Origin: Tetragonia tetragonoides
Taxonomy: Eukaryota; Streptophyta; Magnoliopsida; Caryophyllales; Aizoaceae
Assembly: GCA_038025085.1 (NCBI GenBank)
Contig: CM076152.1
Coordinates: 29,949,501-30,013,500 of the forward strand
DNA: 64,000 bases
Direction: 5' to 3'
Shown: positions 24,136-52,095 of the stretch, piece by piece
How the letters are laid out: the number at the start of each line of letters is the position of its first letter
How positions within the stretch are numbered: position 1 is the stretch's first letter
Program-made: the position numbers and the translations under genes
Notes under the pieces: generated by a model
Told to the model about the DNA's origin: nothing
The model's input: only the letters and a program-made list of their open reading frames with translations
Database searches by the model: none

Positions 24136-24150
24136 ATTGGTCATTGGTCA

Positions 24151-26394: not shown

Positions 26395-26885
26395 GGGAGT
26401 GATCCACTTAGTGATGCTTTAAGTGACCCTGCGAAGTGTTAAAAGTGACCCCTACGTTTTAGTCTATTATCTCAATGGTAGAGCGTTTGTGCTATGCACA
26501 AAAGATGTGGGTTCAAATCTCACATAGACTTCTTGTTATCCCGAAATCAATAAATTAGAAGTGGCCCCTCTCCCTTTTTAGTGCTCAACAACTAGTAATT
26601 CAGTAAGTCTATGCTATAAGTGACATTGCACAATCTTATGAGTGACCCCTCTCTCTTTTTCAAGTGACCCCTTAATCTTATTGAAGTAAACTTCAAATTT
26701 TTAGTTTTGTATTGACATGTTCTTACACCATTGTATAAGTGACCCTGCACTTGAGTCTTTGCACTGTTGCCTGTTGGCCATTCATGACCTGGTTTCTTGC
26801 TATTTCAGAAAACAAATACAATAAGTGACCCTAGATAGTATTAAAAGTGACCCCTCTCTATTTATAAAGTGACCCCCCAATCTTA
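26395..26885 (+). repeat. GTGACCC motif array 2 of element A
   Basis: More than ten further AAGTGACCC copies in plus orientation, on both sides of the plus-strand tRNA-like gene. Several are followed by TCTCTCTTTTT or TCTTATTGAAG spacers. Oppositely oriented copies (GGTCACTTATAG) occur at 27650-27725. Confidence 0.75.
26461..26530 (+). tRNA. tRNA-like gene A1 (cloverleaf, non-standard anticodon loop)
   Basis: Acceptor arms AGTCTAT and ATAGACT pair over 7 bp. The D-arm is CTC...GAG with A box ATCTCAATGGTAGAGCG. The T-arm is GTGGG TTCAAAT CTCAC with a B-box-like GGGTTCAAATC. The anticodon arm is TTTGT GCTATGC ACAAA. The loop centre TAT would be the anticodon, but position 33 is C rather than the near-universal U, and the arm is almost a perfect palindrome. 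It is likely a Pol III-type tRNA-like sequence rather than a decoding tRNA. Confidence 0.65.
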
Positions 26886-26975
26886 TTGAGGTTTACTATT
26901 AATTCTTAGTTCGTAAATTGATACTTACTAATTGATCCCTCGCATAACGAAAAGTGAACCAAATTATCAAGTAGT

Positions 26976-27045
26976 AACCTAAGTAGGATTCGAACCTACA
27001 TTCATTGTGCGAAGCACATTGCTCTACCAATTGAGCTAATAGGCT
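26976..27045 (-). tRNA. tRNA-like gene A2
   Basis: Minus strand. The 5' AGCCTAT pairs with 3' TTAGGTT over six of seven positions with one G-U. D-arm GCTC AATTGGTA GAGC is perfect, and T-arm GTAGG TTCGAAT CCTAC is perfect. The anticodon arm centre is TGTGC TTC GCACA. It points toward A1, 445 bp away. As in the other five copies the anticodon loop is framed by GC...GC. Confidence 0.65.
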
Positions 27046-27200
27046 TCCTTGTTTCTTACAGTACGGAATTATGTATTTCACAATGGTACTAATATAGTGC
27101 TCTTTATTTGCATCATTTACATATCCCGATGAAGTACTGTATAATTATGTACTAGTACTGACTACTGAGTGTGTTTATTTATGTGAAAAAGGGTTCCGAA

Positions 27201-27329
27201 AGGGCTAAAATAAGAGAAAAGAAGCGATATTTCTACAGCTTAAGAGACATGAAGTACCCAATAGGGTTGAGGACTAAATGAGCTACAAAAAGTGGCTATT
27301 GGAAGGCAACGGGTAAGGATATGCAAATT
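27201..27329 (+). pseudogene. Captured NAC-domain exon fragment
   Basis: The plus strand reads RAKIREKKRYFYSLRDMKYP, IGLRTK, a stop, and ATKSGYWKATGKDMQI, then a stop. This is subdomain C-D of the plant NAC transcription-factor DNA-binding domain (family form close to EWYFFSxRDRKYPxGxRTNRA, then GYWKATGKD). A TGA sits where the family has Arg. Upstream NAC subdomains A/B and the C-terminal activation region are absent. It is a second host fragment in element A, unrelated to the CAD piece. Confidence 0.85.
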
Positions 27330-28757
27330 TAGTAATTTACACCAACAGCATAACGCCGGTGTTCCTCTTCCTCCTTTTGCTGACCAGAGTACTAACATAT
27401 AGTACTATCAGTTGATTCGATTTATGACACTTTCAACTTACACTAAGTACTAACTAAAAAACAAAAAAAATTGTCCAATGAACATTGTTCCGTTCATAGA
27501 AGAAACTACAGTGTTGAATAAATCTATAAGATTCATTTTTTATTCCTCTTGATTCCTGAATGACAAAAATGCTACATGTACTAGAATAATATCAATTTCA
27601 ATAAACAAGAAACAAGTTTTTTTATGTAAAACATAAAATGCGTGCAGTCACTTTAATAAGAGCAAGGGGTCACTTATAGGGCTATATAGAGTCACTTATA
27701 GAGTACACTAGGTCACTAGTTGAATTAATATTTGTTCAACGACAACAGGGGTGTATCACTATCTCGCATTAGTATTTGTTGTGAATATCAATTGTCATAC
27801 ACAACAAAGATTATTTATCCATTGAATAAGCAATTCAATTACAGAGTATATGAAAAACGTAGAGTGCTTTAAATTGTCATCATAATTTCTCTTAAAATGA
27901 CCCTGTTTTCTCACACAAGTGACCCTCAGTTACAATGATCTCATAAGAGCATTTAGAATAATAATTAGAAGGAAGATAGTAAACAGACAATTTATTTGCC
28001 TGCTTGCAAGTTCGAAAGCTTCATATTGCAATTTGCCTTTATAACTCATTCCTTTAGTGAGCAACCAATTTACAAGAAAAAAAACATACTACAACCCTAG
28101 TCTCACTATCAACCATCACTAAACTTCAATTCTACTACCGAAGAGTGAACATAACAAGCATAGAATCAAAGCAAGGGGAGCTAGAGTCTCGTACAAAAGC
28201 CCCAATAAAAATCCCAACTTCTGGATACATTGAATAGATATGAAATAAAACCAAAATTGGCATTAATGGATCAAAGTTACCACAAATTGATGAAAAGCTT
28301 ATAGATTCTGCCCCCAAACACAAACACCAAACCCTAGTTCAACAAATTACACGCAAAATAACAAATCTGACCTGAAATATTGATTGAATATTTGTTTAGG
28401 TTCTCCTAGTTTGACTCATCGATATTCTTCGATCTGGAGCTGCCCAGCATAGGCGAATGACGCAGAAAAAGCAATAGAAATAGTCGAGAAGAGAGAAAGA
28501 GAGAGGAGAGAGAAACATATGGGTTGAAAGAGGAGAAGGGGGGAAGAAGATTTCTCAGTACAGTATGCGTTTAAGCGTTTATTTTTTTGACAAGGCCTTT
28601 GAGCCTTTTTCATGCCACATGTTGGTTATTTACGAATCTGCCATTAATGAGTAATGACACGGAGCGAATATGGAGCGTTAGATGAGCAACAATGGATGGC
28701 TGAGATCCCTTCTCACCATCTCACTGTAGCATCCCTTTTCACCAGATCCCTACTCTC
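27330..28757. other. Right arm of element A
   Basis: Contains inverted GTGACC motifs (27650-27725), intron-like A/T-rich DNA, then on the minus strand a leader-like pyrimidine arm (28570-28440) and the right terminal repeat (28757 inward). No recognisable coding sequence. Confidence 0.5.
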
Positions 28758-28769
28758 TATATATATATA
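28758..28769. repeat. TA tract shared by elements A and B
   Basis: Six TA units form the whole boundary. The right end of A stops at 28757 and the left end of B starts at 28770. Confidence 0.8.
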
Positions 28770-29011
28770 GGATTAGGTTCAGGTGTGAACCCCCATGTAT
28801 ATGTGAACAGTACGAACTTAAGACCTCAACCGTCCGATCACTAAATCAAGGGTTGAGATCTTGTAAGCAGCAACGCGGTGGCCTTCTCGTATTAAAATTG
28901 AAGTTTCCTCCGCCCAAAAAAAAAGAAAAATACAATGCTACAGGGCTCTGCTTTACTCGTTCGTTCTCAAACCGTGTACTCATCTTCACTCTCCTCTTAT
29001 CTCTCCTCTCT

Positions 29012-29016
29012 TTCTC
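29012..29016. repeat. Copia target-site duplication, left (TTCTC)
   Basis: The five bases before the LTR at 29017 equal the five bases after the LTR ending at 33987. Confidence 0.8.
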
Positions 29017-29166
29017 TAATACGTTTTGTGAAGAATGAACTGTTGCCTTTCTCATTGATCACAAAGGCCTACTTATAGGCAAAATACAAGAATGGTTTTA
29101 CACGTTACAAACTGTTCAGCTACAAAATACAATAATTACAATATTCACTTAATTTACTTTCCTTCA
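29017..29166 (-). repeat. 3' LTR of the copia element
   Basis: 150 bp. On the minus strand it begins TGAAGGAAAG and ends CAAAACGTATTA. It differs from the other LTR at only a couple of positions seen by eye. Confidence 0.9.
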
Positions 29167-29173
29167 CTCTCCC

Positions 29174-29930
29174 TCAAGTTGGAGCATGGAGATCTGAAAT
29201 GCCCAACTTGCCCATCAACCACTGAAATTGTTGACGCCCAAGTGCTTTGGTAAATATATCCGCAAGTTGATGTTGAGAACGAACATAAGCAGTACTAATG
29301 GTGCCATTGAGAAGTTGCTCTCGGATGAAGTGACAATCAATCTTGATATGCTTTGTACGCTCATGGAATACAGGATTGGAAGCGATATAGAGTGCGGCTT
29401 GATTGTCACAATATAATCGAATCGGTTGAGAATGAAAGACACCAAGGGAGGTGAGAAAGGATTTTAACCATAACAATTCACATGTAGCGACGGCCATCGA
29501 ACGGTATTCAGCCTCAGCCGACGATCTAGAAACCGTTGGCTGTTTCTTGGTTTTCCAAGAAATAGGAGAGGTACCCAACATGATGAAATATCCCGTTAAG
29601 GACCGACAGGTAAGGGGACAAGCAGCCCAATCTGCATCACAGTAACCAAATAACTGCAAAACTCCATCGGAACGAAGAACTATGCCTTGACCTGGAGCCC
29701 CTTTAATATACCGCAGAACACGATAAGCTGCATCCAAATGATCTTGTTTGGGCTCTTGAAGAAATTGTGCCAAGACATGAACAGAATAACAAAGCTCAGG
29801 GCGAGTGAGTGTGAGGTAGACTAAACGACCTACCAATCGGCGATAGCGCCCGGGGTCATTGAGCACTGAGCTTGTGGAAGATGCAAGAGTATGGTTGGGC
29901 TCCATAGGGCACGAAGCGGGTTTTAGCAGC
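29174..29930 (-). pseudogene. Copia pol, RT end and RNase H (frame-shifted part)
   Basis: Continues pol in another frame: MEPNHTLASS, YRRLVGRLVYLTLTRPELC, HLDAAYRVLRYIKGAPGQG, YCDADWAACPLTCRSLTGY, SRSSAEAEYRSMAVATCELL, LYCDNQAALYIASNP, FTKALGR. The copia RNase H acidic residues (YCDADWA, SAEAEY, CDNQAA) are present. The shift relative to the upstream frame lies between about 29900 and 29935, where the frame ...AKTRFVP leaves the family sequence. Confidence 0.9.
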
Positions 29931-29934
29931 GGTA

Positions 29935-32024
29935 AGTCCCACCTCAGAGAGAATGTCAAGTGCATACTTGCGCTGGGACAAAAACAAGCCTTGGGGACTG
30001 CGAGCAATCTCAATTCCCAAAAAATATTTCAAAGCACCCAAATCTTTAATCTGAAAACAAGTCTGAAGATATTTCTTAAACGAGGTACAAGATGAGGAAT
30101 CATTACCAGCCAAGATGAGATCATCAACATATACAAGAACAGCAAGGAAAATATCACCCCGACGATAAGTGAAAAGTGTATGATCAGCATGACTTTGAAG
30201 AAAACCAAATTGTCGAAGGGCTGAAGACAACTTAGCAAACCAATTGCGAGGAGCTTGCTTCAAGCCATACAATGACCGACGCAAACGACAGACTTGGTTT
30301 GGTCGAGGTGAAGAGAATCCCTGAGGCAAGCGCATATAGACCTCTTCATCAAGGTCACCGTACAAAAAGGCATTGTTAACATCTAGTTGATGAAGTTCCC
30401 AACCTTTGATAGCGGCAACGGCTAGGAGAGTACGAACACTAGCAAGTTTAGCTACCGCAGCAAATGTGTCTATATAATCTATACCTTCAACTTGGTTGTC
30501 ACCCCGTACAACCACACGTGCTTTATAGCGCTCAATAGAACCATCAGAGTTGTATTTGATTTTATACACCCACTGAGAGCCAATGACCTTCTTTCCAGGA
30601 GGAAGGTCCTCGATGGTCCATGTACCATTAGTCTCCAAAGCATCAATCTCCTTTTGAATTGCCTCACGCCAACGAGAATCTTTGACAACCTCGGAATAAG
30701 AGCGAGGTTCTACCCCTTCACTAACTGCTGCAAGAAATCGAGTATGGGCAGCAGAAAAATTGTCACATGTAACATAATTAGCTAGTGGGAACGGCATACC
30801 TGATGAGCCCGGAAGAGTTGGTGGAGTGAAAATGGGGTCGACTTCACGAAGAGTGTGACAGTGGTAATCTTGAAGATATGATGGAGGACGACGATTTCGC
30901 TGGGGACGTGCATTATTGACATCCATAGAGGTAGGAACACTGATTGTCGGAGATAACTGTGCTGGAGACAAAGGAACATCTAAAGAAACTGTTTCTTCTG
31001 TTGGTGAAGAAGATACAGATGAAGAAACAGTTTCTTTGGGAGTCTGCGGAGAGGAAACAGTAGAAGGAACGGTTTCCTCTGGAATATCCTGCGAGTATGG
31101 TGATTGCTCGCCTTGAGAAGAAACTCCCCCTGTCGACAAAGGAGCTATAAAGGACCAATCACTTGTAGCAGAACTAGAAGTAGTCGGACTTGACTCATTT
31201 ACTAGTGGAGTAGCAAAAGGAAATTTTGATTCATAAAATACCACATCCCTTGAGACAAACAATTCTTTAGACTCCAAATCATACACCTTCCACCCCTTCT
31301 TCTCATGTGGATAGCCCAAGAAAATACACTTCGTACCATGAGGAGCAAATTTGTCCCTACTCTTAGGTCGCCTATGGACATAACATAAACACCCGAAAAC
31401 ACGAAGTTGGTTATATGAGGGGACAACATTAAATAATTTTTCGTGTGGTGTTTTACCATGAAGTAGGGGAGTAGGGGTGCGATTGGCTGCAAGAACACAT
31501 TCACCCCACAACTCAATAGGCAAGCTAGCTTGGAAACGGAGTGCACGAGCAACCTCTAAAATATGACGATGTTTACGTTCAACCTGACCATTTTGTTGAG
31601 GGGTATCAACACAACTGGTTTGAAATAGCATACCATTTTGAGCATAAAACTTTTTCATAGGTCCCGACCCAAACTCACTACCATTGTCACTACGAACAAT
31701 TTTCACACATTTTCCAAATTGGGTTTTGACCATAGTACAGAAATTACACAACAAGGGACCAACCTCACCCTTGTCAGACATTAATGACACCCAAACAACA
31801 CGACTAAAGTCATCGACAATAGTTAGAAAATAATGAGCACCAGTAAAAGATGCAGTACGATAAGGTCCCCAAATGTCACAATGAATCAATTGAAAACAAT
31901 CATCCACAGTACTAGTACTCAAAGGGAAAGAACTACGAGTTTGTTTAGCCCTATGACAAATATCACATGCCTTATTGATACTTTGAGAACTAACTGTATT
32001 CCCTGGAAGCAATGAAAGAACTTG
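29935..32024 (-). pseudogene. Copia pol: integrase and reverse transcriptase
   Basis: Directly continues the gag-protease frame after one stop codon (32025-32027). In order: integrase zinc region (CDICHRAKQTR), integrase core (HCDIWGPYRTASFTGAHYF, then VDDFSRVVWV, SDNGSEF, TPQQNGQVERKHRHILE), a Ser/Thr-rich linker, then RT (LETNGTWTIEDLPPGKKVIG, VDNAFLYGDL-like HQLDVNNAFLYG, VCRLRRSLYGLKQAPR, and the catalytic VYVDDLILAG). Active-site residues look intact. The open frame runs on to 29856 out of frame with the family. Confidence 0.92.
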
Positions 32025-33596
32025 TTATGATGGGTGACCCAACCTCTTGTGCCAAATATCATCAGAATCCACTTTACATGCGGAGGATGTTGCGACCACT
32101 GTCACTGGCTTGTAGTAGTAGACCCCATTTCGGTACTCACCCACCCCAATCGAGCGCATCGAGTTGCGGTCCTGAAAGACACATAGCTGATTAGAAAATG
32201 TTACAAAACAATTTGCATCAAACATCAAATGACCAACAGAGATTAAATTACAAGATAATGTGGGAATATAAAGAACCCCGTGAATAGCCAAGTCTGAATT
32301 CAAGATTGCTGTACCAACTTTTACAGCGGAGCGTTGAACCCCATCTGGCATACTCGTAGGGGATGGAGCGATGTCATGAGTATCAACCAGTAGAGATAAG
32401 TCCCCTGTCATATGATGTGATGCACCGCTATCGATAAGCCAAGGACCGAGCACAGTATAACAAGGCTTACCCGTCAGTTTGTTGTTACTTGGTGATGGCT
32501 CGATCAAGGATAATAGGCGTTCAAGCTGAGTGTGAGAGAGCCCAGGAATGACTGGTTGGTTTGAAGACCCGCTTTGATCGACACCAGGAGCTGAAACAGC
32601 CGCAGCTACAGCACCAGAACCACCATCACGACCATACCCCGAAGGAGAGGAGTCGCGCCCGCGCCCATGACCTCGTCCTCGACCACGCCCCCATCCATGT
32701 GGGTGACCAATGCGGTCATAACATGTGTCATATACATGGCCATGCCGCTTACAGTGAGTACAAAAGGGGCGCTCACCTGGTGGTCTAGCAGAACGATCGA
32801 TTGATGGAGTGTCACGGTTAGGAGTGAGAGTTCCACGTCCTAAGTCACGCCCACCGTGAGCAGAAAAACCTACTGCCATAGACTCGTCTCGACCACGGGC
32901 TACATCACGGTGTTGTTCCTCTTGATCAATCATTACATACACCCTATCCATACTAGGCAAAGGTTCTGTATTGATAATCTGAGAGCGAAGTGGTTCAAAC
33001 ACAGGATCATCCAAACCCATAAGAAATTGATAGACTTTTAAAGAATTAAACCAAGCTTCAAATTTTGTACCCTGAGCACAAGAACATGTCTCTAGTGGAG
33101 CAAGATTATGCAGATCATCCCATACACTCAGAAGTTTAGTATAATAGGACATGATAGACATACCTTCCTGTTTGATAGACGACAAGCTAGACCATAATTG
33201 ATAAGTGCGAGGACCATTCTGAACAGCATAACGAACTCGCAAATTATCCCATAAAACTTTAGCACTTTGTACCCTAGACACACTACTTTGAATTGACCCA
33301 TCCAAAGTATTTTTCACCCAAGAAACAACCATAGAATTAACAATTTCCCAAGCATAATATTCAGGATCAGTAGGAACAGGTTGAGCAATACTACCATCAA
33401 CAAAACCTAATTTATTCTTAGCCCTAAGTGCAGTAGTAATGGATTGTTCCCAATCACTATAATTTGCACCCTTTAATATTATCAAAGTAATACGATCCCC
33501 TGGATTATGAGAGGGATGCAAAAAATAAGGGAAAGTTGGGTCAAGAAGAGTTTTGTTACCACCATTAGAATCCTTGGAGTCACTGTCTTTTGTCAT
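32025..33596 (-). pseudogene. Copia gag and protease
   Basis: A 523-codon frame: gag capsid-like region (LKGANYSDWEQSITTAL, YYAWEIVNSMVVSWV, LWDNLRVRYA), a CCHC-type zinc knuckle (CTHCKRHGHVYDTC), Gly/Arg-rich RNA-binding stretch, aspartic protease active site (LIDSGASHHMTG) and the gag-pre-integrase motif (WHKRLGHPS). It ends in a TAA immediately after HPS, where copia polyproteins continue. The pol frame is in phase with it, so a single nonsense change separates the two. Confidence 0.92.
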
Positions 33597-33825
33597 CGTT
33601 GCTAACGTGAGGCGGTGGATCTATGTAAGGGCTTGACGAACACCAAACCAAGACCACAAAAAAATATGAACTCACGTCCGGACCGGAAGGACTGATCAGA
33701 CGAACAAGAGAATTACACCCGGACTGATTGGGTACTTGACTAAAGTTGCTCGGACACGAGCATATGTGACTGAGAGAAAACGAAAAAGATGAGTGCAGAA
33801 GCGTGATATCAGACTAGGGCAGATG

Positions 33826-33837
33826 ACTCTGATACCA
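33826..33837 (-). promoter_or_regulatory. Copia primer-binding site
   Basis: Minus-strand TGGTATCAGAG immediately follows the 5' LTR end (CGTATTA). This is the common copia sequence complementary to the 3' half of initiator tRNA-Met. Confidence 0.9.
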
Positions 33838-33987
33838 TAATACGTTTTGTGGAGAATGAACTGTTGCCTTTCTCATTGATCACAAAGGCCTACTTATAGG
33901 CAAAATACAAGAATGGTTTTACACGTTACAAACTGTTCAGCTACAAAATACAATAATTACAATATTCACTTAATTTACTTTCCTTTA
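33838..33987 (-). repeat. 5' LTR of the copia element
   Basis: 150 bp, near-identical to 29017-29166. Its first dinucleotide on the minus strand is TA rather than TG because of one substitution. Confidence 0.9.
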
Positions 33988-36094
33988 TTCTCTCCCCAAA
34001 CTATATTCCAAGAACCCTAAATCGAGGCAAATCGCGAATCCAATTAAAATTATGATTGAATTCAAAGGCTGTTTCAAATTACAAGGCAAGCTTTGCAAGG
34101 TATGAATATTTATGAGACTCATTATGAATTGTTAGGGTTTGAACTTTGAAATTTAGTTTTTTAAGTTTTCTGTGGGTGTAATTTTGGGTTGAATATTGAT
34201 TTATCTACCATTCTTGTAGATTTTGTTCCTTTTAAACCATAGATTTTTCATTTGGAATTTCAATGTTCGATTTCTTGTTGAAAATGAAGAAGAAATTAAA
34301 TGATTGTGTCCAATGACTACAGGATGAGAACAAGAAGGTATTTTTGAAGCTTTTGTTAGTGATTTCAAAAATTTTGGGGAATTAAAATGTTGCTACTGCT
34401 CGTAGCCTCGTTGCTAGCGTGGATTGGTTTTTAATGATTATATGTGTGTGTACTTGTGATTCCTGGAGAATGTGGCTACAAGGGAATGATGTTCTATCAA
34501 TTTAGATGCCCATATTTGGTGATTAGATTATAGAATGTACTGGTACAATTCTCTAATTTTCAATTGTGAGCTGGTGATGTGCTTACTTCACTTTTCTCAT
34601 GACATTTCTGGATCAAGTAATCTCATAATAGAGTTTGTTTCCTCACGTGCATTGAGACTTTGGCTTGCTTCTTGGTTGCTATATGTTATTGTTGTTTTGC
34701 TTGGGATATTTTGCTGACATGAGATTCAAATTTAGATTTGAACTTTCTAATTTAGGCTGGGAAAGTGGCTCTCCAGTGGTAAGAGACTAAGGGAATCTAA
34801 GTAGGTGAATTTGGGAAGTGGTGAGTTGATCTAAACTTGGATTGATTTGGTTGAATATTGGGTACACTTCTTTATAAATACATGTTAAGTGGCCTCTAAC
34901 TAAAGTCATTTCAAACAATAATAAAAAAAAGAGAAAGAATTCAACTGAGTAGCGTGCAAATGTGGTACTGTAGGAAATGGAGTACAAGATGAAGTGAACA
35001 CTACCACTAAAGATGGAAACAACATTACTGAATAGACACCGGTTGATGAAAAAGGGATATTGATTGTGATGCGGTGGCATTATCGTAAATTAGGTGGAAG
35101 TTTTAACATTCCGTTTTTTTGGAATAAGATTTCTTTTTGTTATGTAGTAAGAAACTTGCTCTCCAGGGAAGAGCAGCACCTTGAAGGAGCTTTTGATGTA
35201 TTCTATAATCAGCCTCAAACTAAATCACATACTTCACTGATTCTAGGCAGTTGGAATTGGAGGAGCTGTGCAACAGATATAAAGGCGTGTCTTGTTTCTT
35301 TATTTCTTGTTGTATGTCTCTGTCCACTTGCGTTGTTTTTTATTTCTTTTTTAATTTTTTGGATCTGTCATCTATTTCTTTTTATGGCTTGAAGAAAAAA
35401 AACTTAGGACACTGAATGTTATCCATTTATCAGACTGTGTAGTTCTTGGACATGTCTTAAGATCCTTATGGTGGCATGATAATGGCCGATGGTATCACTC
35501 TCCTCTACAATGTCCTTCAGGTCGGTCTTTACTTTGAAATTCTGTTTGGCTGTGGTAATCTGGGTATCCTTGTGGTAATATCGTATATTGGTTTTCTGAA
35601 TCTTTTCCAGCAACTTGTGAAGCACATTATTGCTTAATCTGTGTGTGTGAATGCTCAATGTGACCCACGGTTGGGGAGTTCTCTTCTAAAGTTGTTTTGG
35701 TTTAGGATGTTTAGAATATGATTTCATATTGTTGCTCCATACAGGTTTTCTGGGTGGGGTGAATGGGTTTAGCGGTCGCATAGATCTGGTGAGTTCCCAA
35801 TATATGTAGGCTAAGTTCTGAACAAATTCTTGCCTTTTGCGTGTCTGATATTATCTGGCTTTATTGTTAATGGGTTTTGTGGTGATGGGTTGTTCTCATT
35901 TTGTGTTAATGTGTTGGGTTAATTTCAATAATGATAACATTATATTTTTGGGGTAGGCTTTTCTGAGATGACTTCAGTTCAAATATTGGGGTTGAAATGT
36001 TGAAGTAATTAGGTTTAAGCTTGAGTTTAGTTTTCTGTTCTTGGATTACTAGGTTTATACTACTAGTAGTTGGAATTCCGATAAACATGCAGCA
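33988..36094. other. Left arm of element B after the copia insertion
   Basis: Continues the leader-like arm (AACCCTAAATCGAGGCAAAT near 34013), then a donor-like AAG|GTATGA at about 34100 and intron-like T-rich DNA. An exon-like open stretch near 34955-35055 (KCGTVGNGVQDEVNTTTKDG) with an internal stop is not identified. Another near 35150-35290 (EEQHLEGAFDVFYNQPQ) is also unassigned. Confidence 0.4.
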
Positions 36095-36810: not shown

Positions 36811-36917
36811 ATGACATAGCATTTTAGGTATTCTTGTGTTATTTCTGTCTATGTTTGTACATGGTTGCTATCTTGTTTGTATTCTGTTTCAAGTCTGAAG
36901 GTGTTTTCTGAATTCTA

Positions 36918-37682: not shown

Positions 37683-37685
37683 ATT

Positions 37686-39015: not shown

Positions 39016-39131
39016 TATTATTACATGAGATAATATAAATTTGGCTCATTTTAATTAATAATGGTATATCTCAAGCGGTAACGAGTAAAAAATAAATTGT
39101 CGTCATACTAGACATAAACTCAAGAATGAAC

Positions 39132-39249
39132 CTGTCTTATAACAGCATCAACGGGAAATGGAGCTCGCCTTCTATGAAGAGTCTCCCCCTCTACCAGCCT
39201 CATACTCCACGAGAATTTCTCTTTGCAACCAACACCGAGAGACTCTCCT
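39132..39249 (-). other. Unidentified exon-like open segment in element B (minus)
   Basis: The minus strand is open for about 39 codons (GESLGVGCKEKFSWSMRLVE, GETLHRRRAPFPVDAVIRQ) and ends exactly at a CAG|GTTCAT donor. The residues look like real coding sequence, but no family was recognised. It may be another captured exon. Confidence 0.35.
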
Positions 39250-40129
39250 CGAGTTCAAACAAGATCAGCTGCACATATAAACAAGCTAAGTAATCCGAGA
39301 TCAAGTACATGAAGAGATGTGTTGCGTAGGGCTAAGTCATCATAAGTGATCATCATTGCATCACACACACACACACACACACAAATGAAAAAAGAACAAG
39401 CAAAAGAAAATGATGGGTGCTGTGTATTACTAGTATCTTTGAGTTGCCTACTCCGATACAACACAACGAATGCTTCAGTATATTACACACGCTCTGTGTT
39501 TCTACTATCTTTGAGTTGCCTACCCCAAAACAGCCACCGTGCAACTTCTTTATGTTTATGTCTCATCTCCCCGTTAAGTTTCCTATATTGTTTCCGGAGT
39601 CTGTATCAGGAAGACTCAGGACTTTGGGGACTTCCTATTCACCCCTTAGTAGCTATATAGGTAGCCCCTGTATAATCTAAATGCAGAAACTATTAACTTT
39701 TGGAGCTAAATTGTTCTCAATGTAAATTGACTCATGCTAAACTGAACCAAAGCAATGAGAGAGACACCCCTTGTATGAAAGACAATAATCCCCTTTTCCA
39801 GTTCCCCACCCCCTATTTCCAATGTCCTCATCATTTTATCTAAACGAGTTACGTACCCATAAACGAGTTACGTACCCATCTTTTAGGATTAGAGTTATAT
39901 GATTAGAATAACAGAAGGAAGCCCACCAAAATGAAGAACACAAAAACAAACCCCACGTCATCAGGGTGCATCTGAATTTATGTAAGCAATAAGATAAATT
40001 AAGGCACTTTATTCTTTACACTATACTGATAAATTAAGGCAATATGATGTGTTTCAAAATGAACAGTGTGGAACAAAACAAGGATTTTAGCTTAATATAC
40101 CTTATATTGACCAGAGCAGTAGAGCCTCC

Positions 40130-40460
40130 CTAAAAAACAAAAATGGAGCCACCTAAACAAAATAACCAGAGCCACGAAAAAGTAATAATAAGAGTCTCAA
40201 CAAGGTTTAACCATAGACACCCAATGCTACAGAAGGTATTCAAAAACAAAAATAATATTTTCAAGTACTAATTGTAATTGTCAGAAACATGCAACACCAT
40301 CCCCTAACTATTATACGAGCAACACCATCCCCTAACTATTATACGAGCCACCCTAAAGTTACAACATGAGCCACCCTAAAGTAACAACGGGAGCCACTCT
40401 AAAGTACTAGCAGGAGCCACCCAAAGTATGAACCAGAGCCACCCCAAAATATGAACCAGA
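40130..40460 (+). repeat. GAGCCACC motif array with a 29-bp tandem duplication
   Basis: About eight copies of GAGCCACC(C) are scattered here. ACACCATCCCCTAACTATTA plus its flank is duplicated in tandem at about 40293-40350. Confidence 0.7.
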
Positions 40461-41229
40461 GCCACCCTTTACTGCTATAGAAGTTGTTCCAAAACAAAAA
40501 CATTATTTAGAATACTAGTTGCAATTGCCATAAAATAAAATTTCAAGTACTGGTTGTACTTGACATGAACATGCATCGCCATCCCCTAAGTAATATTGAA
40601 CCGTCTGAACGAGCTGCTAGCAAATTGAATACCCTTGAATTACTTTTCATGTCAAATGAGCTGCTAGCAATGTTATATAGATAGGTTATATAGATTGGTC
40701 AAGCAAGAAAAATAGAAAAGGATATACACACATGATGTACTATGAGCAAAACAGACTTCTGAGAGACTGAGGCATCACAAGTATGGAAATCAAGGCCTCG
40801 ATAACATGTGCCCTGTAACCAGCAGCACAGGAACCAGCATAATTCAAAAAACAGAATGTAACAACTAACAACTACTAAATCAGCATTACAATGTAGCAAA
40901 TGCTGCAACTAGAGTGCAGTAGCAGCATAAATAATGGAAACAACCCACCCACACAGCAGCAACTTCACAACTTTGGCAACGACACACCAACACCTCACAG
41001 TAGCTCCACACAGAAGCTGCAACAGGAGCAGTAGTACCTAACAGCAACACAACAGCTATACCATCAGCCTAAAAAGTAGAATTCACATGCACAAAAGACC
41101 TTCAAATGTAGGTCACTCTAACTTTTGAGAACTTATTTGTTAGACAAAACAGCTTTTCATCTGTACTACTATATGTTTCTGTTTTAATGGTTTCACTGCT
41201 AGATGTTTTCAAGATAAAAACCGTCACTA

Positions 41230-41680
41230 TCGATCTTATGTCAGAGCCACACCAATCTTATAACAGAGCCACCCCAAAGTATACTGAGCTAAAAAAAGTG
41301 AACTGAGTCAAAAATGTAAATTTAGTAACCACCCTTATATTAAGTGAGAGCCACCCCTATATTCTACGAGAGCCACCCTATATTCTATGAGTAACCATTT
41401 CATTGATAGAGAACCACCACTGTATCATGTGAGAGCTACCCCCATATTCTTTCGAAGCCACCCCTATATTCTATGAGAGTCACCCATATTATTACTTGAG
41501 AGACTACTGTTTTATTTAACAAGAGTGAACCTTATATTATGTTGAGAGCCACCCCTATTTGTCAGAGCCACCCCTATATTCCATAAGAGACACCGTTGTA
41601 TTATATGAGAAACTATTTTATTCTAAGAGAGCCACCTCTTTATTATATGGAAATTAATATGAGAGCCACCCTTGTGAATA
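41230..41680 (+). repeat. GAGCCACCCCTATATT array 2
   Basis: More than twelve units with TATATTCTATGAGAG-type spacers in plus orientation. A few inverted copies (GGTGGCT) follow at 41785-41905. Confidence 0.75.
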
Positions 41681-42009
41681 AATTCCTAGTGAAGCACCTC
41701 TGAGGTACACTATCATAAGGAAGAAAGAAACAGATTATAAAGCTAACTCTAAAGCATCAGACATTCATTTAATAGAATACATTGGGTAGCTCCCTTAGAA
41801 TATAGGGGGTGGCTATTACAAACTAGATTAAATAGGTGGCTCAGTTTGTATTTAAAATCATACTAAAGCATAAACATTCACCCATGTAAGATATTGGGTG
41901 GCTCCCTTAAGTTGTATAGGAGTTACCCCAAAAACAGAAACTCAAGAACAAAATTGCGACTCCTATAATCAATATTCTACATTATTTGATTTCAAACATG
42001 AATTAGTTA

Positions 42010-42170
42010 AAGCAAAGCCACCCCCAAAGGGATAAAGGAGAGTCACCCCTATATTCTGTTGGAGCCACCCCTCTATTAAGTGAGAGTCACCCCTATATTC
42101 TGTTGGAGCCTCCTCTATTAAGTGAGAGTCACCCCTATATTCTGTTGGAGCCACCCCTATTTTACAATCA
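42010..42170 (+). repeat. Minisatellite of the element B motif
   Basis: Three regular units of about 45 bp, each containing GAGTCACCCCTATATTCTGT and GGAGCC, with CTATTAAGT links. Confidence 0.8.
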
Positions 42171-42459
42171 ATATATCTCAAAGCAACAACCTATATTCAG
42201 TTCAGTTTCTGATGACACAACTTCGGTTTCTATTTCAGAGACTGAATTTCAGATTAGTTGCTACACTTTGTAATCCATTGAATTTGCAACCGAGCTTCTG
42301 TTCATTGCACATCCAGCTACCTATTCCAGTACTGTCATCAAAAATTGCTAAGGGTAGCAACCAAGTTATACAGTTGAAATTATGAGAACCTTAATGTCTT
42401 GCCTCTGTTATGTTTTATGTCAGAACAAGTTGCCTACTGAGTTTGTTGTAATTTGCAAC

Positions 42460-42715
42460 TGAAATGACCACTATTGTCTAATAACTAGTGGCTTCTCATC
42501 ATCTGTAGATAACCAATACTGTCCAAATCAGGCTTCACCACAAAATGATAATGTAAATGCATTTTCAGAGCCATAAAAGCATTGCCACCCCCCTGCACTA
42601 CTGTATTTTCATGATCTGTCATTTGCAGCTGATCACTATTATTTAATAACTAATGGGTTCTCATCTTCTGCATATGACCAATATTGTCGAAAAACTAGGC
42701 TCACTCTCCTCACAA
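42460..42715. repeat. Imperfect direct repeat of about 75 bp
   Basis: 42464-42540 and 42629-42710 align by eye along their length (CACTATT, TTTAATAACTA, TTCTCATC, ACCAATA.TGTC, GGCT.CAC). Function unknown. Confidence 0.6.
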
Positions 42716-43829
42716 CCTCTTTCTCTTCATTTCAGAAGGAGCAAGCTTGGGACATACGTCTGATCCCCATAGCTAGACAGCTAGTTACAATCTCTCTCCT
42801 TCATCACACCGTAGAACAGATCTATTATGAATTTGGGAGAAATCTAAGAATAAAGTTGTTTATCTCCTCAAGGCTCAAACACAAAGAAGCCTTAAATAAA
42901 CACCCAATTTGCCTTCCGAAGTTCAAATTACACAAACTAACCCACCATATACCCACAGCAATGAGCTCTCTTTTGTTAGCACCATCAATTTTGCAGTAGC
43001 AATGTTCCTGTACTAGATCAGCCACCTTCAAACGTCCTTCCTTGCCTTCGCTGTCAAGATTTCATCCTCAACGCAACCCCCATGGCTTCCATTCTCTCAC
43101 CTCCATGAAGCCACCCCTATTGTCTATGAGAGCCACCCTACATTCTCTCAACAAAATTTTAACTCATGCAATTTCAATCATATTCTATTCAATACAAAGT
43201 TATTTTTCCTATTCAATTGTTCTCCAACAATTTCGTGATCAGAACAAAATTGACAAATTATATTAAAAAAACAGAACCCTAGTTCGATTATTTCATATTG
43301 AAATTCAAATAATCCTTCAATCAAGGAAATGCAATAAACAAAATTATAAAGAAACTAATTTCATCCACATCAATCCTACTTCAAACAATAGGGCGCTAGG
43401 GATCAAATTATGAAAGAAATCCTCTTATTTTGACCTGCAACTAAATGAAATTGGAGAATTTGGCCTGGAACTAAATGAAATTGGAGCAAACCCTAATTCA
43501 TAAAAATTACAACTTGAGGGAAGAGAGAGAAAGATGAACCTCGCATAGAAATTTACCGATTCAGTGGACTTGAAGCACGAAATCGTTGGACTCAGAGAAG
43601 ATTAACTGGAAGAATATGAAAGCTTGTTGATGCCCAGTGTTAATGGAGTCGCGTTGTTGGGGGCGGTGACCAGATGGTTTTTGTTGTTTACTGTATACCC
43701 AAGATGAAGGGACGTGATTTTATTGTTGGCTGAATAAAACGAGATGAACGGCTGTGATTGTTTGTTTGTTCGCAGAGTTCGCACTAGACGATTGGTTCAC
43801 ACCAGAACTGGACTCTCTCTCTCTCTCTC

Positions 43830-43845
43830 TATATATAGATATATA
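43830..43845. repeat. TA tract shared by elements B and C
   Basis: A TA run with one GA interruption separates the (CT)n end of B from the GGATCGGGCTC start of C. Confidence 0.8.
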
Positions 43846-44039
43846 GGATCGGGCTCAAATGAGAGCAGAGATAGGATGAGAGCGTGAGAGCAAATGGTGA
43901 CCATTAGATTAAAAAACGGACAGCCCAGATCTGTTTTTAAGTGCCTAGGACGCGCGTGTCATTAATAGATTAGTTCAGGACATTCTCGTCATTTCGCGTG
44001 CGGATTTAAATATCTCAAACCCTCTTTCATTTCCCGTCA

Positions 44040-44570
44040 CCCAGCCCCCCACCCTCTCCCTGTTCTCAGTCTCTCTCTCCTCCCAGCTCTCAACTCTCTC
44101 TCTCTCCTCCATAAACGACCACCATTGAAGCTCTCACCACACACTCACACACACACGCTCTCTCTTCAGCTCTTTCGCTCTGTTTCTTCTCTCTCTCTCC
44201 TCACTGCCTCTCTCCCTCCATCTCCGGCGAAGCTCCGGCTAGTCTCACACTCATACGCCCTCTCTCTCTCATCAGCTCCCTCACTACTCTCTCTCATTTT
44301 CTTCTCTCTCCTCTGATTACCGCCATTACAGGCGACAAAATCTCAGCCCAAGCTGCCATCTTGAAGCCTTACCGCCATTAACGATCATGCAAGAGCTTAG
44401 AAGCTCCGATCTACCAAGATTACACTCGTATTTTAAAGACAAAAACCATAAAAGCACTGAATTCAGTTATCTCTCTCGCTCTTTTCGATCGGTCCGTCAT
44501 TTCCCCCTTTCTCTCTCCTCCATTGAAGCCCAAGTTCGAGCTTAGTTTTTGTGTTCCATCTCACTCCCAG
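44040..44570 (+). other. Leader-like arm of element C
   Basis: Strongly CT-rich with CTCTCTCTCTCC runs and CACACACTCACACAC, then GAAGCTC/ACCGCCATT units, ending in a CCCAG|GTAATC donor at about 44570. This is the texture of a plant 5' UTR with a leader intron. The right end (51480-51600) has the same texture on the minus strand. Confidence 0.45.
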
Positions 44571-45194
44571 GTAATCTTTTATCTGTATTCTTCGGTTCTC
44601 TTACTCTCCCTCATTTTTATTTCTCACATCTCCATTTTCTAGGTTTTCAACTGATTTGGTTGATACGGTGCTTTATTTGGTGAGAATGCGATTTGATTCT
44701 TCTACAAATAGCTGAAGCTTTTCTTAGCCCAAGTGTTCTCTATCAATCTGAGGTTCGTTTTCTATCTCTGGACTCTCTATTTTTTTTTATTTTTTTTTTG
44801 AATGAATTGAATTTCTTGTTTGATTGTTGAGGAAGTGAGCTCCGATTGAATTTTGAGTAATTATTAGACGTTTCTAGTCTCAATTTTCTTGTGTGATTTG
44901 GTGAATTTGATGATGATGATGATGTTGTTGATTAGTTCAGTTTTGGATGTGATATGTGAAGTTGAGCTGTTAACTGTCAGGTATTTGCAAAATATGTTGA
45001 GTATTAGGGGTTTTGCTGTTGGTTTTGTCTGTAGTGGATGATAATGTTGATTAGTTCATGTTAATTTTGAGATTGAGCTGTTAATTTGAGAGGCATTTGA
45101 AAATGCGGTGTAATTAGGGCTTCATGCTGTCAATTTAAGCTATATCATGATCGTATCTCTAGCTATGTCTCTGATTTATCATGTGTCAGAATTT

Positions 45195-45620
45195 GGCTGA
45201 GTGTACCGTTAGGTATATTTATAGTGTACCCTTCGTATACTTGTAGTGTACCATTGGTATACTTGTTGTGTACCATTGGTATAACTTTAGTGTACCATTG
45301 TTATTTGTGAAGTCAGGTAAGGCTAGGCTAGACTAGACTGGTGGTGTGGGCATGTGGACATGGCATTTTCAATGTTTCAGTGGGGTTCCCATGCTCTCTA
45401 TCATTAGTAGTATAGCTTTTATGACCAGCATTTGTTTATCATTGCTGCACGACCCCTTGCGAACTGCCATACCCCATTGAGAAGTTCAGGCTTGGCTTTA
45501 AGTATTGTAGTAGCTAAACTTTGGTGTATCTTTGAAATTCAATCAAAGGTAATGTACCTTTGGTGTAATCTTAGTGTACCTTTGGTATAATTTTAGTGTA
45601 CCTTTGATATTGAGGGTTAC
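45195..45620 (+). repeat. GTACCTTTGGTAT motif array 1 of element C
   Basis: About ten copies of AGTGTACC(A/T)TTGGTAT with short AT-rich spacers, in two clusters, all in plus orientation. Confidence 0.8.
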
Positions 45621-46287
45621 TTTCATGCTGTTTTCCGACTGTACATGCTTAGTTTTACTTGCCTGGAAGCTGAAAACTGAATATAAGGGGTAGTGTCTCA
45701 TGTGTGCAGCATAGATTACCGAGTATGGTGTGGTACTTCTTAGCTGGATTGAACTCTTACCTTGTTTATGTACTAATCTCTGAATCTGAATTTCAGACCT
45801 CGGTATGAGGTATTAAACTCTGATTTTAACTTGTTATAGTGCAAGCTTAGTTATAACTCATTGCACAAGTGGGAAAATAAATGCATATCAATTAGGACAT
45901 TTTCTGTGTACCTGAAATGACGATTTTCGCATGTTTGTGATTTGTGAATGTATGCGGGTCTGGAGCTTCAGTTCTGAATTAGGCACTTGCAGCAGGTTTT
46001 TGTTTATGTGATCTAAGGTTGAAAATACATTGATAAATGACTATACCGACTGGCGAGTTAAATAGGAAACTAGGATACACTTCTTTGTGCTCAAAGTGCC
46101 GATTTCATCTTGCTAACGAGTTGATTAAAGTCGTTTCACACCTAAAACAATTGTGTACAAATTTACCCTTAACAATTCTAGAAACCACATTTTATAGTTA
46201 TTTTTAATGAAACCAGCTTCTAAATGCTTTCTCTTTCCGTTTTGCAACCCACCTGGTTTCCTCTCGTTTTTCCCACTGGTTAGCTGC

Positions 46288-46385
46288 ACACTTGGGGTTG
46301 GGAGACGGATTAGATTTTGGGAAGATCTTTGGTGGGAAGAGCAGCCTTTGTGTTTTTCTAGAATTTTCGAATTGAGTCAGTCAAA
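46288..46385 (+). pseudogene. LINE ORF2 scrap inside element C
   Basis: VGRRIRFWEDLWWEEQPLCF is the region just upstream of the LINE zf-RVT domain (compare LGNGTKIHFWTDLLIG in the LINE at 9.2 kb). It is only about 100 bp with no element ends. Confidence 0.6.
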
Positions 46386-46609
46386 TTGCTTTAAGTTGTG
46401 TGTCAGTAAACTTCAATTTTTTTTTGTTGCTTTTTCCGTTTCAGGGTTCCAACCTGTGCTAGCATACGACTAGATTTTGTTTTAAATTACACGAAACTTG
46501 AATGTGTCCCTAATGTGTTTCATATTTTTCTTGGATTCACTATTTTGGAGTTTGAAGAATGCGAGTTTTTTAGTTTTTTTACTGAGTTTACTTCGCAATG
46601 GTACATTAT

Positions 46610-46855
46610 ATCTACATGCACTAAAATTTGTGTAACTTTGGTATAAACTTATTGTACCTTTGATAATGTCTAAGTGTACCTTTGATATTGTCTGAGTTTA
46701 CCTTTGATATATCTCAGTGCACCTTTAGTATAGTCCCATAGTATAGTTTGTATGTACCTTTGGTATGATTTAGTGTACTTTTTGTATGATTGTAGTGTAC
46801 TTTTGATGCAGTTTTAGTGTACCTTTGATATACCTTTGGTATGATCCGGTGCTAA
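46610..46855 (+). repeat. GTACCTTTGGTAT motif array 2 of element C
   Basis: Ten or more copies of GTACCTTTGATAT/GTACCTTTGGTAT with TCTAAGT or TTTTAGT spacers, in plus orientation. Confidence 0.8.
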
Positions 46856-46897
46856 GTGTAAATCAAGTGGTCTCACCATGATTAATCACCTTTGCAG

Positions 46898-47356
46898 CTC
46901 CGGAGACGCAATCACGATCACAGACACAAATGCCTCTTCAACAAATTGCACCTACTCATGACAATATCTTCAGATTGAAACAAGGTACCCTATATCCCCT
47001 TCTTCTGTATATGTTCTGCGTTTTATTCAATATACAACAAATCGCTTTTTTGCTTTTTATGGTTCTTTTGTAGCAAAAAAATTAGGAAAAAACAAATACA
47101 ATCACCTTGCTATTGTGCTTTTTTGCCTTTTCTAGTTGTTGGACAGCTTGCTATTAGGATGGATTTTGTTTTAATTAACACTTGGACCTGTGTATTCTCC
47201 ACCATAAGAAAACCAAAATACAGAACTAAAAGAGCTTTTGGCCTCGCTTTTCTCTTGGATTCACCTGTCATAATTGGAGTGTATGGATTCCGGAGTGGAA
47301 AGTTGCTTGTTGGGCATGTGTATGCAAACAAGATAGAGATGCATTCCCGCAATTAA
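46898..47356 (+). other. Unidentified exon-like segments in element C
   Basis: 46898-46985 follows a TTTGCAG acceptor-like site, stays open (APETQSRSQTQMPLQQIAPT, HDNIFRLKQ) and ends at an AAG|GTACCC donor-like site. After a TTTCTAG at about 47135 the next segment is open to 47356 (VGQLAIRMDFVLINTWTCVF, LLDSPVIIGVYGFRSGKLLV). It is possibly captured host coding sequence. Product unknown. Confidence 0.35.
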
Positions 47357-47564
47357 ATACTCAGTGAATATTTGGTTATGGTGCTGTCATTTTAGGCACC
47401 TGAACTGTTGGATACATTCTTCTTGATCTGTCTTTGATGAAGTTGGATTTTTAGTTTAGTAATCACAAGTATCCGTTGGGTTGAAGTCTAATAATAATTG
47501 AGGAGTCTGTTTTAGTTTAACCTCAAATTGGGAGGAACTTGTTCGTGGCCTTTTCGCATATACT

Positions 47565-47635
47565 AGCTTATTAGCTCAATGGGAGAGCATTTGTGCAATA
47601 GCACAAAGGGTGTAGGTTCGACTCCTACATAGGCT
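47565..47635 (+). tRNA. tRNA-like gene C1
   Basis: Acceptor AGCTTAT/ATAGGCT pairs over 7 bp with one G-U. D-arm GCTC AATGGGA GAGC. T-arm GTAGG TTCGACT CCTAC. Anticodon arm TTTGT GCAATAGC ACAAA has an 8-base loop. It faces C2 across about 1.85 kb. Confidence 0.65.
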
Positions 47636-47945
47636 TACAACCATTAACCATATATGTTTGTGCTTCTTTTCTGTTTTTCCTTCTATCGACACAAAATTCT
47701 TATGACATTATAATTATTGATGCTCAATTAGTTGCATTCTGTTTTCATGCTTAAATCACTTGGGCACTTGTCGAGTTATTGGTTTTGGTCTCTTTCAATT
47801 GGATGGCATGCCATGTCTAGTCAATACAGTTGCAGAAAGGGAGGGATGTTTGGACTCTTGAATACTTGGCTGTGCATGGGACACAATTCCAACGTCAATA
47901 CTCTTCGTTCCTTATTCTTCTTTTCATTTGACTTTTGACAGTCTC

Positions 47946-48145
47946 CAATACGACACTTTGACCATAAATAACTCGTAGAACCCCCTTCTATAGTTACAAA
48001 AATTATAAAAACATTGAAGGGAGTAATATTAAAATGTGAAGGGTATTGTGGAAAATGTGAAGGGAGTAATCTTTTTGGATGCATCAATCTACCTCTATAA
48101 ACTGGAGCCAGGACATCAATCTACCTCTATAAACTGGAGCCAGGA
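47946..48145. repeat. MITE-like trace and a 32-bp tandem duplication
   Basis: 47946-48070 (CGACACTTTGACCATAAATA, then GAAGGGAGTAATATTAAAAT) resembles sequence near 21.1 kb. 48082-48113 and 48114-48145 are identical 32-bp units starting CATCAATCTACCTCTATAAA. Confidence 0.6.
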
Positions 48146-48540
48146 TAAGATAATACTCTGCAAAAATGGGCGAAAGTGTTTGATTTTTGTCTGGTTGAAC
48201 AAATACCAACAAGGTAAAGATGTTATCAGATTGGCTTTTCCTAGAGCAGCATTGAGGTAGAAATGACTGAGATCTGACAGAATTAGATTAAGATTAGTCC
48301 GTCACAGTTTCTGATTTCCTGTGCGGATGTTCCAATCCTACCCAATATATAACAAGAGATCTGAGACCCCTATGCCAAAAAACTTATGATAAGAGCTTAT
48401 TAAGTTCAGGAAGAAAAAAGGAAGATAATAATTTAAAGACGAGAAACACAAGCTAATGACTAGCTCCTCAAACCACCTCAACAGATTATATAAAAAAGTT
48501 GATCTTAACACGTTGAATCGTCTTCTCTAGTTCAAACCTC

Positions 48541-48830
48541 TCTGCATTAAAAGAGCAAGCAGTGCTCTAACTGCAGAGTTAGTAGCCTTTAGAGAAGCGC
48601 GAAAGTCTAACAACTGTTGGAATCATACCTTTCTATGCACTGACTATTCTCTCAAAGCTTTCGAGATTTTGACAAAGAAAGGCTCTAACAAGGGGTACCT
48701 ATCCAACACTGTCTCTGAATGGCGGGACTGGTGAAGCACATGGATTATCTATTTAAAGAAGAGAATGTTTTAGCAGACGCAGTGGCTTATAATTTGCAAT
48801 GAGCTCCATGTTTTAAACTCAAGTCCTAGG
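48541..48830 (+). pseudogene. LINE RNase H fragment inside element C
   Basis: Reads ALTAELVAFREARKSNNCWN, HTFLCTDYSLKAFEIL and, after a frame change, VKHMDYLFKEENVLADAVAY. These are the AxxAE..., D.S.KA and REEN..AD.VA signatures of the LINE RNase H domain. It lies between the two tRNA-like genes, which may explain why their spacing in C is larger than in A and B. Confidence 0.65.
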
Positions 48831-49244
48831 AGTTGTAGGACCTCGATGACTTAACTGGACTCCACGTCCTAAACTTGTTACAATGTAATTTTAGTATACA
48901 GCTCATTCAGTCATTTGCATTACAAAATTAAACTTACTAGTACTTTTGATTATAGAATTTAGACATGTTTTAAGCTCATCTTAGTGTGCACTAACTTTTG
49001 ATCTGGCAAGGCTATTACATTACATGTATCATGTGTGTATTATACTGTCAACTCTATGATTACAGAGTTTTGAAAATCTAGTGAGCTCCCAAACATATAC
49101 TACAGAGCTGGCTAGCTGATGCCATGTATACTATAAATAGTCATATGATCATTGATATATACAGTCCACCAATTACCATTTCCATGTAGCATCTTCACCA
49201 CCTTATAAATAGTCATATGATCATATCATCCAAGTCAATTACTA

Positions 49245-49486
49245 AAATTCACCAGCGACCAACAAAAACAGCCAGCAACCAACAACCCTTAACACAACAA
49301 TAGCAGCCAACAACCGCCTAACAACAACAAGTAACAGACAATTTACAGCAATCAGCAAACAACAGACAGTTTGCAGCAACCAGCAAAGTGGTAGACAGCA
49401 GCAACTTAAGACAACCAACTACACAGAAAAGAAGCAGTACATAACAACACCAAACAACAGCACAGAACAACACCATTAGAAGCATA
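49245..49486. repeat. CAA/CAG-rich segment beside tRNA-like gene C2
   Basis: Dense AACAACAA, CAGCAACC and AACAGCA units. Read on the minus strand it forms the downstream flank of C2 (TTCTAATG, TGTTGTTCTGTGCTG, TACTGCTTC). It aligns with the flank downstream of B1 at 37758-37880. Confidence 0.65.
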
Positions 49487-49558
49487 AGTCTATGTAGGAT
49501 TTGAACCTACACCATTTGTGCAATTGCACAAACGCTCTACCAATTGAGCTAATAGACT
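49487..49558 (-). tRNA. tRNA-like gene C2 (identical to B1)
   Basis: Minus strand. All arms are perfect: acceptor AGTCTAT/ATAGACT, D-arm GCTC/GAGC, T-arm GTAGG/CCTAC. The anticodon arm is the same 18-base palindrome as B1. Identity of the full 72 bases with B1 in a different element points to recent exchange or strong conservation. Confidence 0.7.

Positions 49559-51777: not shown

Positions 51778-52095
<318 letters not shown>

Follow-up and report, generated by a model that had tools for sequence, protein, structure and literature searches.

A 64-kb stretch of the Tetragonia tetragonoides genome, referred to throughout as the window, contains three adjacent transposable elements (E1, E2, and E3), each carrying a pair of tRNA-like sequences whose 3' ends face each other. 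ARAGORN detects six such sequences and no further ones in the window, and the Rfam model RF00005 recovers the identical six with 50.6-61.4 bits against a gathering score of 29. The initial annotation had described six tRNA-like sequences and none besides, forming three convergent pairs; both programs bear this out, and 3/3 pairs are convergent. It had also placed the pairs near the centre of the elements, which is loose as to position: the pairs span 50-63% of E1, 39-44% of E2 once a nested copia-type retrotransposon is subtracted, and 47-72% of E3. The large palindrome that it had assumed around them is rejected, as the arms of one element are unalike save for short end repeats, the tRNA-like sequences and, in E1 and E3, short arm repeats.

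All six sequences retain the acceptor, D, and T arms, whereas a hairpin closed by a 3-4 nt loop stands in place of the anticodon loop in 6/6 (for instance, TTTGTGC-AATT-GCACAAA). Other genomic copies include a 59-nt form from which the anticodon arm is gone, the remainder still scoring 42.7-51.7 bits in Rfam (45.8 in L030; L-numbered loci are stretches taken from the same genome). Since the 7-nt anticodon loop is closed to 3-4 nt in the six and the arm is deleted in other copies, these sequences are rejected as decoding tRNA genes.

Two main types are separated by a rule in our own script, type A reading AGTCTAT...ATAGACT and type B reading AGCCTAT or AGCTTAT...ATAGGCT. Each element holds one A and one B, with A on the left in E1 and E2 and on the right in E3, which suggests that the pair predates the split of elements whose arms are otherwise unalike. 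Exceptions exist elsewhere in the genome, where the second pair of L017 is B+B and the pair of L016 is A+C. The left sequence of E2 and the right sequence of E3 also have about 95 bp of downstream flank in common (37685-37852 and 49391-49559, 83% over 176 columns including the tRNA-like sequence). Their upstream flanks differ, which suggests an exchange of parts at the tRNA-like sequence. TTGCTG-rich stretches follow the type A sequence in E2 (37820-37870) and the transposase stop codon in L031 (6917-7290), each on the sense strand.

The three elements lie end to end in a non-nested array, separated by (TA)n-type microsatellites (Table 1). Terminal inverted repeats (TIRs) were scored singly for E1, whose ends (24148-24223 and 28698-28772) are 83% identical over 76 bp, and a weak motif is common to the six ends of E1-E3 and an end of L030. 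The left end of E2 recurs in L009, L010, and L011. A target site duplication of the 8-11 bp typical of Mutator-like elements (MULEs) would be masked because the flanks are themselves (TA)n-type tracts. Outside the nested copia, E1-E3 contain no open frame of at least 180 aa, the longest having 140 aa; Pfam was not applied to these short frames. E1-E3 are best explained as non-autonomous MULEs of the FAR1-transposase clade that target (TA)n, with transposition itself putative, and their tie to transposase-bearing MULEs runs through the tRNA-like sequences, the end motif, and the architecture. Each element also carries its own array of short motifs (GTGACCC, GCCACCC, and GTACCTTTG at 25174-26869, 36117-43132, and 45248-51498, respectively). 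Despite the differing motifs, the commonest spacing is 22 bp in all three (22-23 in E2), for which conceivable reasons are two turns of the helix or a unit of small-RNA size.

Table 1. Elements, tRNA-like sequences, and CT-rich tracts in the window (types assigned by script)
Feature	Position	Strand	Basis or remark
E1, MULE-like TIR element, non-coding, flanked by (TA)n tracts	24166..28757		Sequence reading; approximate bounds
E2, between (TA)n-type tracts, host of the nested copia	28768..43832		Approximate bounds
E3, between (TA)n-type tracts	43846..51781		Approximate bounds
tRNA-like type A, E1 pair, left	26461..26531	+	ARAGORN; Rfam 50.6 bits
tRNA-like type B, E1 pair, right	26975..27045	-	ARAGORN; Rfam 50.9 bits
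tRNA-like type A, E2 pair, left	37686..37758	+	ARAGORN; Rfam 61.4 bits
tRNA-like type B, E2 pair, right	38063..38134	-	ARAGORN; Rfam 56.8 bits
tRNA-like type B, E3 pair, left	47565..47636	+	ARAGORN; Rfam 52.5 bits
tRNA-like type A, E3 pair, right	49486..49558	-	ARAGORN; Rfam 59.5 bits
CT-rich leader-like tract, E1 left arm	24246..24440	+	Splice-donor-like GTAAGT near 24510
CT-rich leader-like tract, E1 right arm	28449..28567	-	Composition scan
CT-rich leader-like tracts (two), E3 left arm	44005..44330	+	Composition scan
CT-rich leader-like tract, E3 right arm	51508..51606	-	Composition scan
Ty1/copia-like retrotransposon nested in E2, outside the system	29017..33992	-	155-bp direct repeats, 98% identical, 29017-29171 and 33838-33992

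Orientation and fold across genomic copies

The exact pattern TATTAGCTCAAN{1,3}GGTAGAGC has 793 matches (406 forward and 387 reverse) in the genome scanned, which comprises 752.8 Mb in 27 contigs. The reversed pattern has none in the whole genome, and a looser version likewise gives 1,325 matches against 0. Orientation was assessed on the 100 of the 793 exact places that were listed, covering contig C1 and part of C2, to 32.7 Mb. Among these, 23 neighbouring couples lie within 2.5 kb, of which 21 are convergent with gaps of 293-989 bp, one is ++, one is --, and none is divergent (P 3.3e-11 under a probability of 1/4 for each orientation). A second sample consists of 21 fetched loci, representing the 22 best-scoring of 38 matches outside the window (40 matches were listed in the genome, two of them in the window). 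In 16/21 of these loci the type A anchor has a partner detected by Rfam within 2.5 kb, and 16/16 such pairs are convergent; a decayed partner is recognised by flank similarity in L022 and L024. Extra copies beyond the inner pair occur in L010, L014, L017, L019, L020, L023, L025, and L026, some facing away from their neighbour.

A tRNA-derived short interspersed nuclear element (SINE) is rejected by the fixed orientation and by the lack of a common body among the six, apart from the flank common to the type A sequences of E2 and E3. The recent SINE dispersal considered in the initial annotation is thus ruled out, and its view that TIR elements otherwise unlike each other carry a conserved, oriented pair is upheld by these orientations together with the covariation described below. 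In a viral collection, one tRNA-like pattern had no exact match and a peptide pattern occurred in one stretch, which is not a transposase relative.

Compensatory change was measured in 30 distinct sequences, hand-chosen for diversity, over 23 cloverleaf pairs, with 500 shuffles and slid versions as controls. Standard pairs fill 93.5% of cloverleaf cells as against 89.0% in shuffles, a percentage biased upward because most rows were found with the tRNA model or by similarity. Both sides have changed in 9/23 pairs compared with 4.3 in shuffles, a count reached by 1/500 shuffles. The covariation score is 0.208 versus 0.131 in shuffles, with 0/500 reaching it and slid versions at no more than 0.086, though related rows among the 30 sequences inflate such scores. 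The changes include the acceptor stem and thus extend beyond the A and B boxes, and the hairpin that replaces the anticodon arm covaries too (4/7 pairs). The acceptor, D, and T arms are kept with compensatory substitutions, a point that the initial annotation had raised as a check. At the loop level, a loose motif finds the D-loop GG in 44/47 and the T-loop TTC in 45/47 distinct sequences (42 and 41 with stricter motifs). The folds of the six beat shuffles, with z from -2.4 to -5.5, although the E1 left copy prefers an alternative fold; a type C copy (L020) gives no cloverleaf and a z of -1.2. Conservation across 25 type A copies is 98% in the first 50 columns, 88% in the following block (23 columns of tRNA-like sequence and 27 of flank), and 51-77% in the flanks; a type A query had picked these loci, and the rule that sorted them uses type A letters. 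Taken as sequence comparisons, these data support constraint on the tRNA-like sequences at the RNA level.

Linkage to FAR1-type transposase genes

A search with the domain PF10551 gave 2726 candidates, and among the 150 MULE hits listed, one is separated by 2.2 kb from a tRNA-like sequence of the listed set. This locus, L030, is flanked by (TA)n at one end and carries two tandem plus-strand tRNA-like sequences (45.8 and 59.8 bits), and a minus-strand transposase frame with PF10551 MULE and PF03101 FAR1 domains, so that a MULE transposase is present in a related element. Inside the elements, L030 and the window align at the tRNA-like sequences only, with 80-96% identity; sequence outside the elements also aligns. 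Searching the genome with the L030 protein returned seven matches that are 79% identical and have open frames of 779 or 732 aa, among them L031 (779 aa, 79% over the part compared). Relatives 51-53% identical occur in Vicia, Lotus, and others, where they are named FAR1-RELATED SEQUENCE 5-like.

Thirteen transposase loci were fetched, namely L030, L031, and L032 with their surroundings and ten loci at the place where a tRNA-like sequence was expected. In 12/13 a tRNA-like sequence lies downstream of the transposase and faces its 3' end, most of these loci being near-identical members of one family, with L030, the L031 family, and L041 (67% identical) as independent lineages. The facing sequences score 49.1-55.7 bits in the L031 family and L041. 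A third tRNA-like sequence of L030 (7140-7213, +), across its transposase, faces another transposase match 2.0 kb on (C1:23382038). This match and three further ones (C2:44797985, C8:42607941, and C10:18682378) are faced by a tRNA-like sequence at 0.1-2.0 kb; these four were found by coordinate comparison and picked because they matched, and have no denominator. Where tRNA-like places were listed (C1, and C2 to 32.7 Mb), 18 of the 150 MULE hits occur, and for 1/18 an exact match is present at 10 kb or less, which makes the feature seem the property of a clade rather than of MULEs at large.

The L031 locus has other structural features. An inverted repeat of 340 bp (3643-3982 and 8676-9015, 99.7%) starts about 430 bp inside its (TA)n-flanked left end, and an apparent cut-off tRNA-like fragment lies at about 9033-9049. 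Upstream of the transposase frame, 3997-4143 forms a strong long hairpin that microRNA-precursor models match below threshold. Elsewhere in the window, the minus-strand frames within the nested copia were taken by eye to be gag-pol-like, those at 7191-10564 and 56321-59913 presumably represent degenerate pieces of retrotransposons without long terminal repeats, and an open frame at 62786-63706 is presumed to encode a protein like the nucleolar EBP2.

A proposed role in transcript end formation

The base composition of the elements changes near the pairs. T exceeds A in the left arms of E1-E3 and A exceeds T in the right arms, and the cumulative T-minus-A maximum falls at 27185 in E1 (140 bp right of the pair), at 37951 in E2, and at 47937 in E3, the latter two inside their pairs. 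Not every arm is extreme by itself, since the skew of the E1 right arm (-115 in 1712) falls inside the 5-95% range for segments outside the elements; what matters is that the sign is consistent. Agreement in sign is seen in 14/16 paired loci, two of them near zero, and disagreement in L017 and L019; in L031 the maximum (7796) is beside the tRNA-like sequence at 7958-8028. A composition flip close to the pairs is expected if two inward transcription units converge. CT-rich windows resembling plant 5' leaders begin on the inward strand 135-214 bp inside 5/6 ends of E1-E3, the E2 left window having been measured across the copia joint and the E2 right arm reaching 0.68 only; splice-donor-like sites lie further inward than these tracts. 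The whole window has 12 CT-rich tracts, of which five are within E1 and E3, 5/5 on the inward strand.

Such an arrangement has a precedent in maize MuDR, where passages of PMC3440606 describe TIR promoters (about +165), two convergent genes, mudrA and mudrB, and antisense RNA arising from failed termination between them. By analogy, each end of the elements described here would hold an inward, MuDR-like promoter, giving two converging transcription units, with a tRNA-like sequence in sense orientation toward the 3' part of each non-coding unit. Lacking an anticodon loop, it still has the acceptor stem, T arm, and D-/T-loop contacts, the expected cues for nuclear protein-only RNase P and tRNase Z. 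Excision from the RNA polymerase II (Pol II) transcript by these enzymes would create the transcript's 3' end, stop read-through between the units, and so prevent silencing double-stranded RNA. Cutting of each sense transcript is proposed because the retained features match those by which RNase P and tRNase Z are expected to recognise a substrate, and the observed orientation suits this role because it is the sense RNA that carries the tRNA fold. Given the anatomy, orientation, RNA-level conservation, and transposase linkage observed, we infer that the arms are transcribed and cut, to the benefit of the element; the probability that the tRNA-like sequence is cut from a Pol II transcript, sets its 3' end, and separates the converging units is put at roughly 0.5. 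More tentatively, an anticodon-less tRNA may have become, in a clade of plant DNA transposons, an RNA part dedicated to end formation; cleavage by nuclear PRORP and tRNase Z would then separate the two units, limit antisense overlap, and aid escape from silencing. Among the roles suggested in the initial annotation, RNA end processing fits best.

Passages of PMC4919922 report that the plant organellar enzyme PRORP1 protects the D-/T-loop bases G18, G19, C56, and C57, that human nuclear RNase P cleaves substrates without the anticodon stem-loop, and that PRORP2 and PRORP3 are nuclear in Arabidopsis. Against cutting, the same source reports that joint deletion of the D and anticodon stems abolished cutting by organellar PRORP1. 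The 59-nt form retains its D arm and so makes a fair test case, not proof. Other points weigh against the proposal as well. No exact-pattern partner accompanies 58/100 of the places listed (42/100 are in a convergent pair), and these may reflect decay, a deviating partner, or true singles. Nor does Rfam find a partner in 3/21 fetched loci (L013, L021, and L028); with L022 and L024, which have a decayed one only, they qualify the pairing expected of other copies, whose orientation is far from random. Strict pairing everywhere does not hold: the transposase arm has no tRNA-like sequence of its own in L031 and L032, where a single copy sits on the non-coding arm, and two of those in L030 are in tandem on the same arm. 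In L039 none lies within the 3.5 kb taken. In five divergent copies, taken from four loci, type B sequences are only slightly better kept than their flanks (90-93% versus 81-87%); in three close copies they are not better kept (97-99% versus 96-100%). Type B is broken in 3/5 divergent copies (L018, L022, and L024), and individual copies are therefore able to lose the tRNA-like sequence.

Another account treats the tRNA-like sequences as RNA polymerase III (Pol III) genes: their transcription, or TFIIIC occupying the A and B boxes, would set a road-block or insulator between the Pol II units, with the RNA as a by-product. The location between convergent units agrees with this, as do an A box intact in 27/30 and a B box in 25/30 sequences by our own motifs, and a first TTTT at a median of 36 nt downstream versus 90 nt at random places; both measures count against end formation by cutting. 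A TTTT within 25 nt follows 9/20 type B copies but 6/26 type A copies, and the 18/55 overall against 20% by chance makes a weak case for terminators on an arm whose sense strand is T-rich anyway. A DNA road-block has no need of an RNA fold, and the compensatory changes in the acceptor stem fall outside the boxes. A Pol III role, although possible, is rather unlikely. Plant tRNA-like structures can give an RNA stability, CCA addition, export, or long-distance movement, and the 3' tRNA-like sequence could thus mark the element RNA instead of being a site of cutting. The covariation would fit such a mark, and graft-mobile transport of a reporter mRNA after addition of tRNA sequences is reported in the part of PMC10226581 covered. 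This explanation is nonetheless quite improbable, as placement at the convergent junction is explained more simply by punctuation of the transcripts.

The sequences could also be passive debris of tRNA origin that an ancestor acquired in a single event, with descent fixing the orientation. MULEs are prone to acquire host gene fragments (PMC6446971, in part). The broken copies and the close copies without extra constraint are in keeping with debris, and the A and B of each of E1-E3 would fit one inherited ancestral pair. Debris would not be expected to covary, however, or to be the only place where L030 and the window elements align. The 59-nt forms have lost the anticodon arm and little else, intact copies adjoin open transposase frames, and the start of type A is far better kept than its flanks in the 25 copies from loci chosen by type A query. 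On balance, passive descent is an unlikely origin of the pattern, and cutting at the tRNA-like sequence is retained as the preferred explanation.

Known systems and significance

The array closely recalls the SaTar and MuTAnT elements, which passages of PMC5907723 and PMC4486113 describe as (TA)n-flanked TIR elements in modular arrays, none interrupting another, with a mudrA/Jittery-type autonomous relative. They differ in size, being about 0.2-1.9 kb when non-autonomous or about 5 kb when autonomous. The word tRNA has no occurrence in the main texts of these two papers or in the covered part of PMC9168764, and a literature search of titles and abstract openings, with most subscription papers outside its reach, returned no description of tRNA-like sequences in MULE or other TIR DNA transposons. 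Judged from sequence, the array architecture is of a known type, while an RNA part in a MULE clade appears to be new.

Other systems resemble the pairs in particular respects. MuDR likewise has two inward units with TIR promoters, transposase on one arm, and a termination problem between them (PMC3440606, in part), whereas here the second unit is apparently non-coding and bears a tRNA-like sequence, the transposase is of the FAR1 type, and transcription is predicted. The likeness would be one of working rather than of close kinship. In mascRNA and menRNA, a non-decoding tRNA-like structure forms the 3' end of the non-coding Pol II RNAs MALAT1 and NEAT1 (passages of PMC12941219), and a cloverleaf kept without a decoding function is found here too, by the covariation and by the folding z of the six, although the E1 left copy prefers an alternative fold. 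Those are animal genes with a triple helix, in contrast to hundreds of plant transposon copies with putative processing. The t-elements of plant mitochondria, which are not aminoacylated, define transcript ends through cutting of a tRNA-like structure (passages of PMC11658184), as is proposed here. They lie beside mitochondrial genes, whereas the present sequences are nuclear and parts of transposons.

For genome annotation, tRNA-finding programs can call transposon parts tRNA genes by the hundred in such genomes. An RNA element at the junction, kept across elements that have almost nothing else in common, suggests, in a form open to testing, how convergent transposon units could be kept apart. 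If the proposal is true, plants would have long non-coding RNAs whose maturation depends on the tRNA machinery, and a non-coding arm would stand where MuDR has mudrB. As marks for cutting transcripts, the tRNA-like sequences may represent a new kind of part for DNA transposons.

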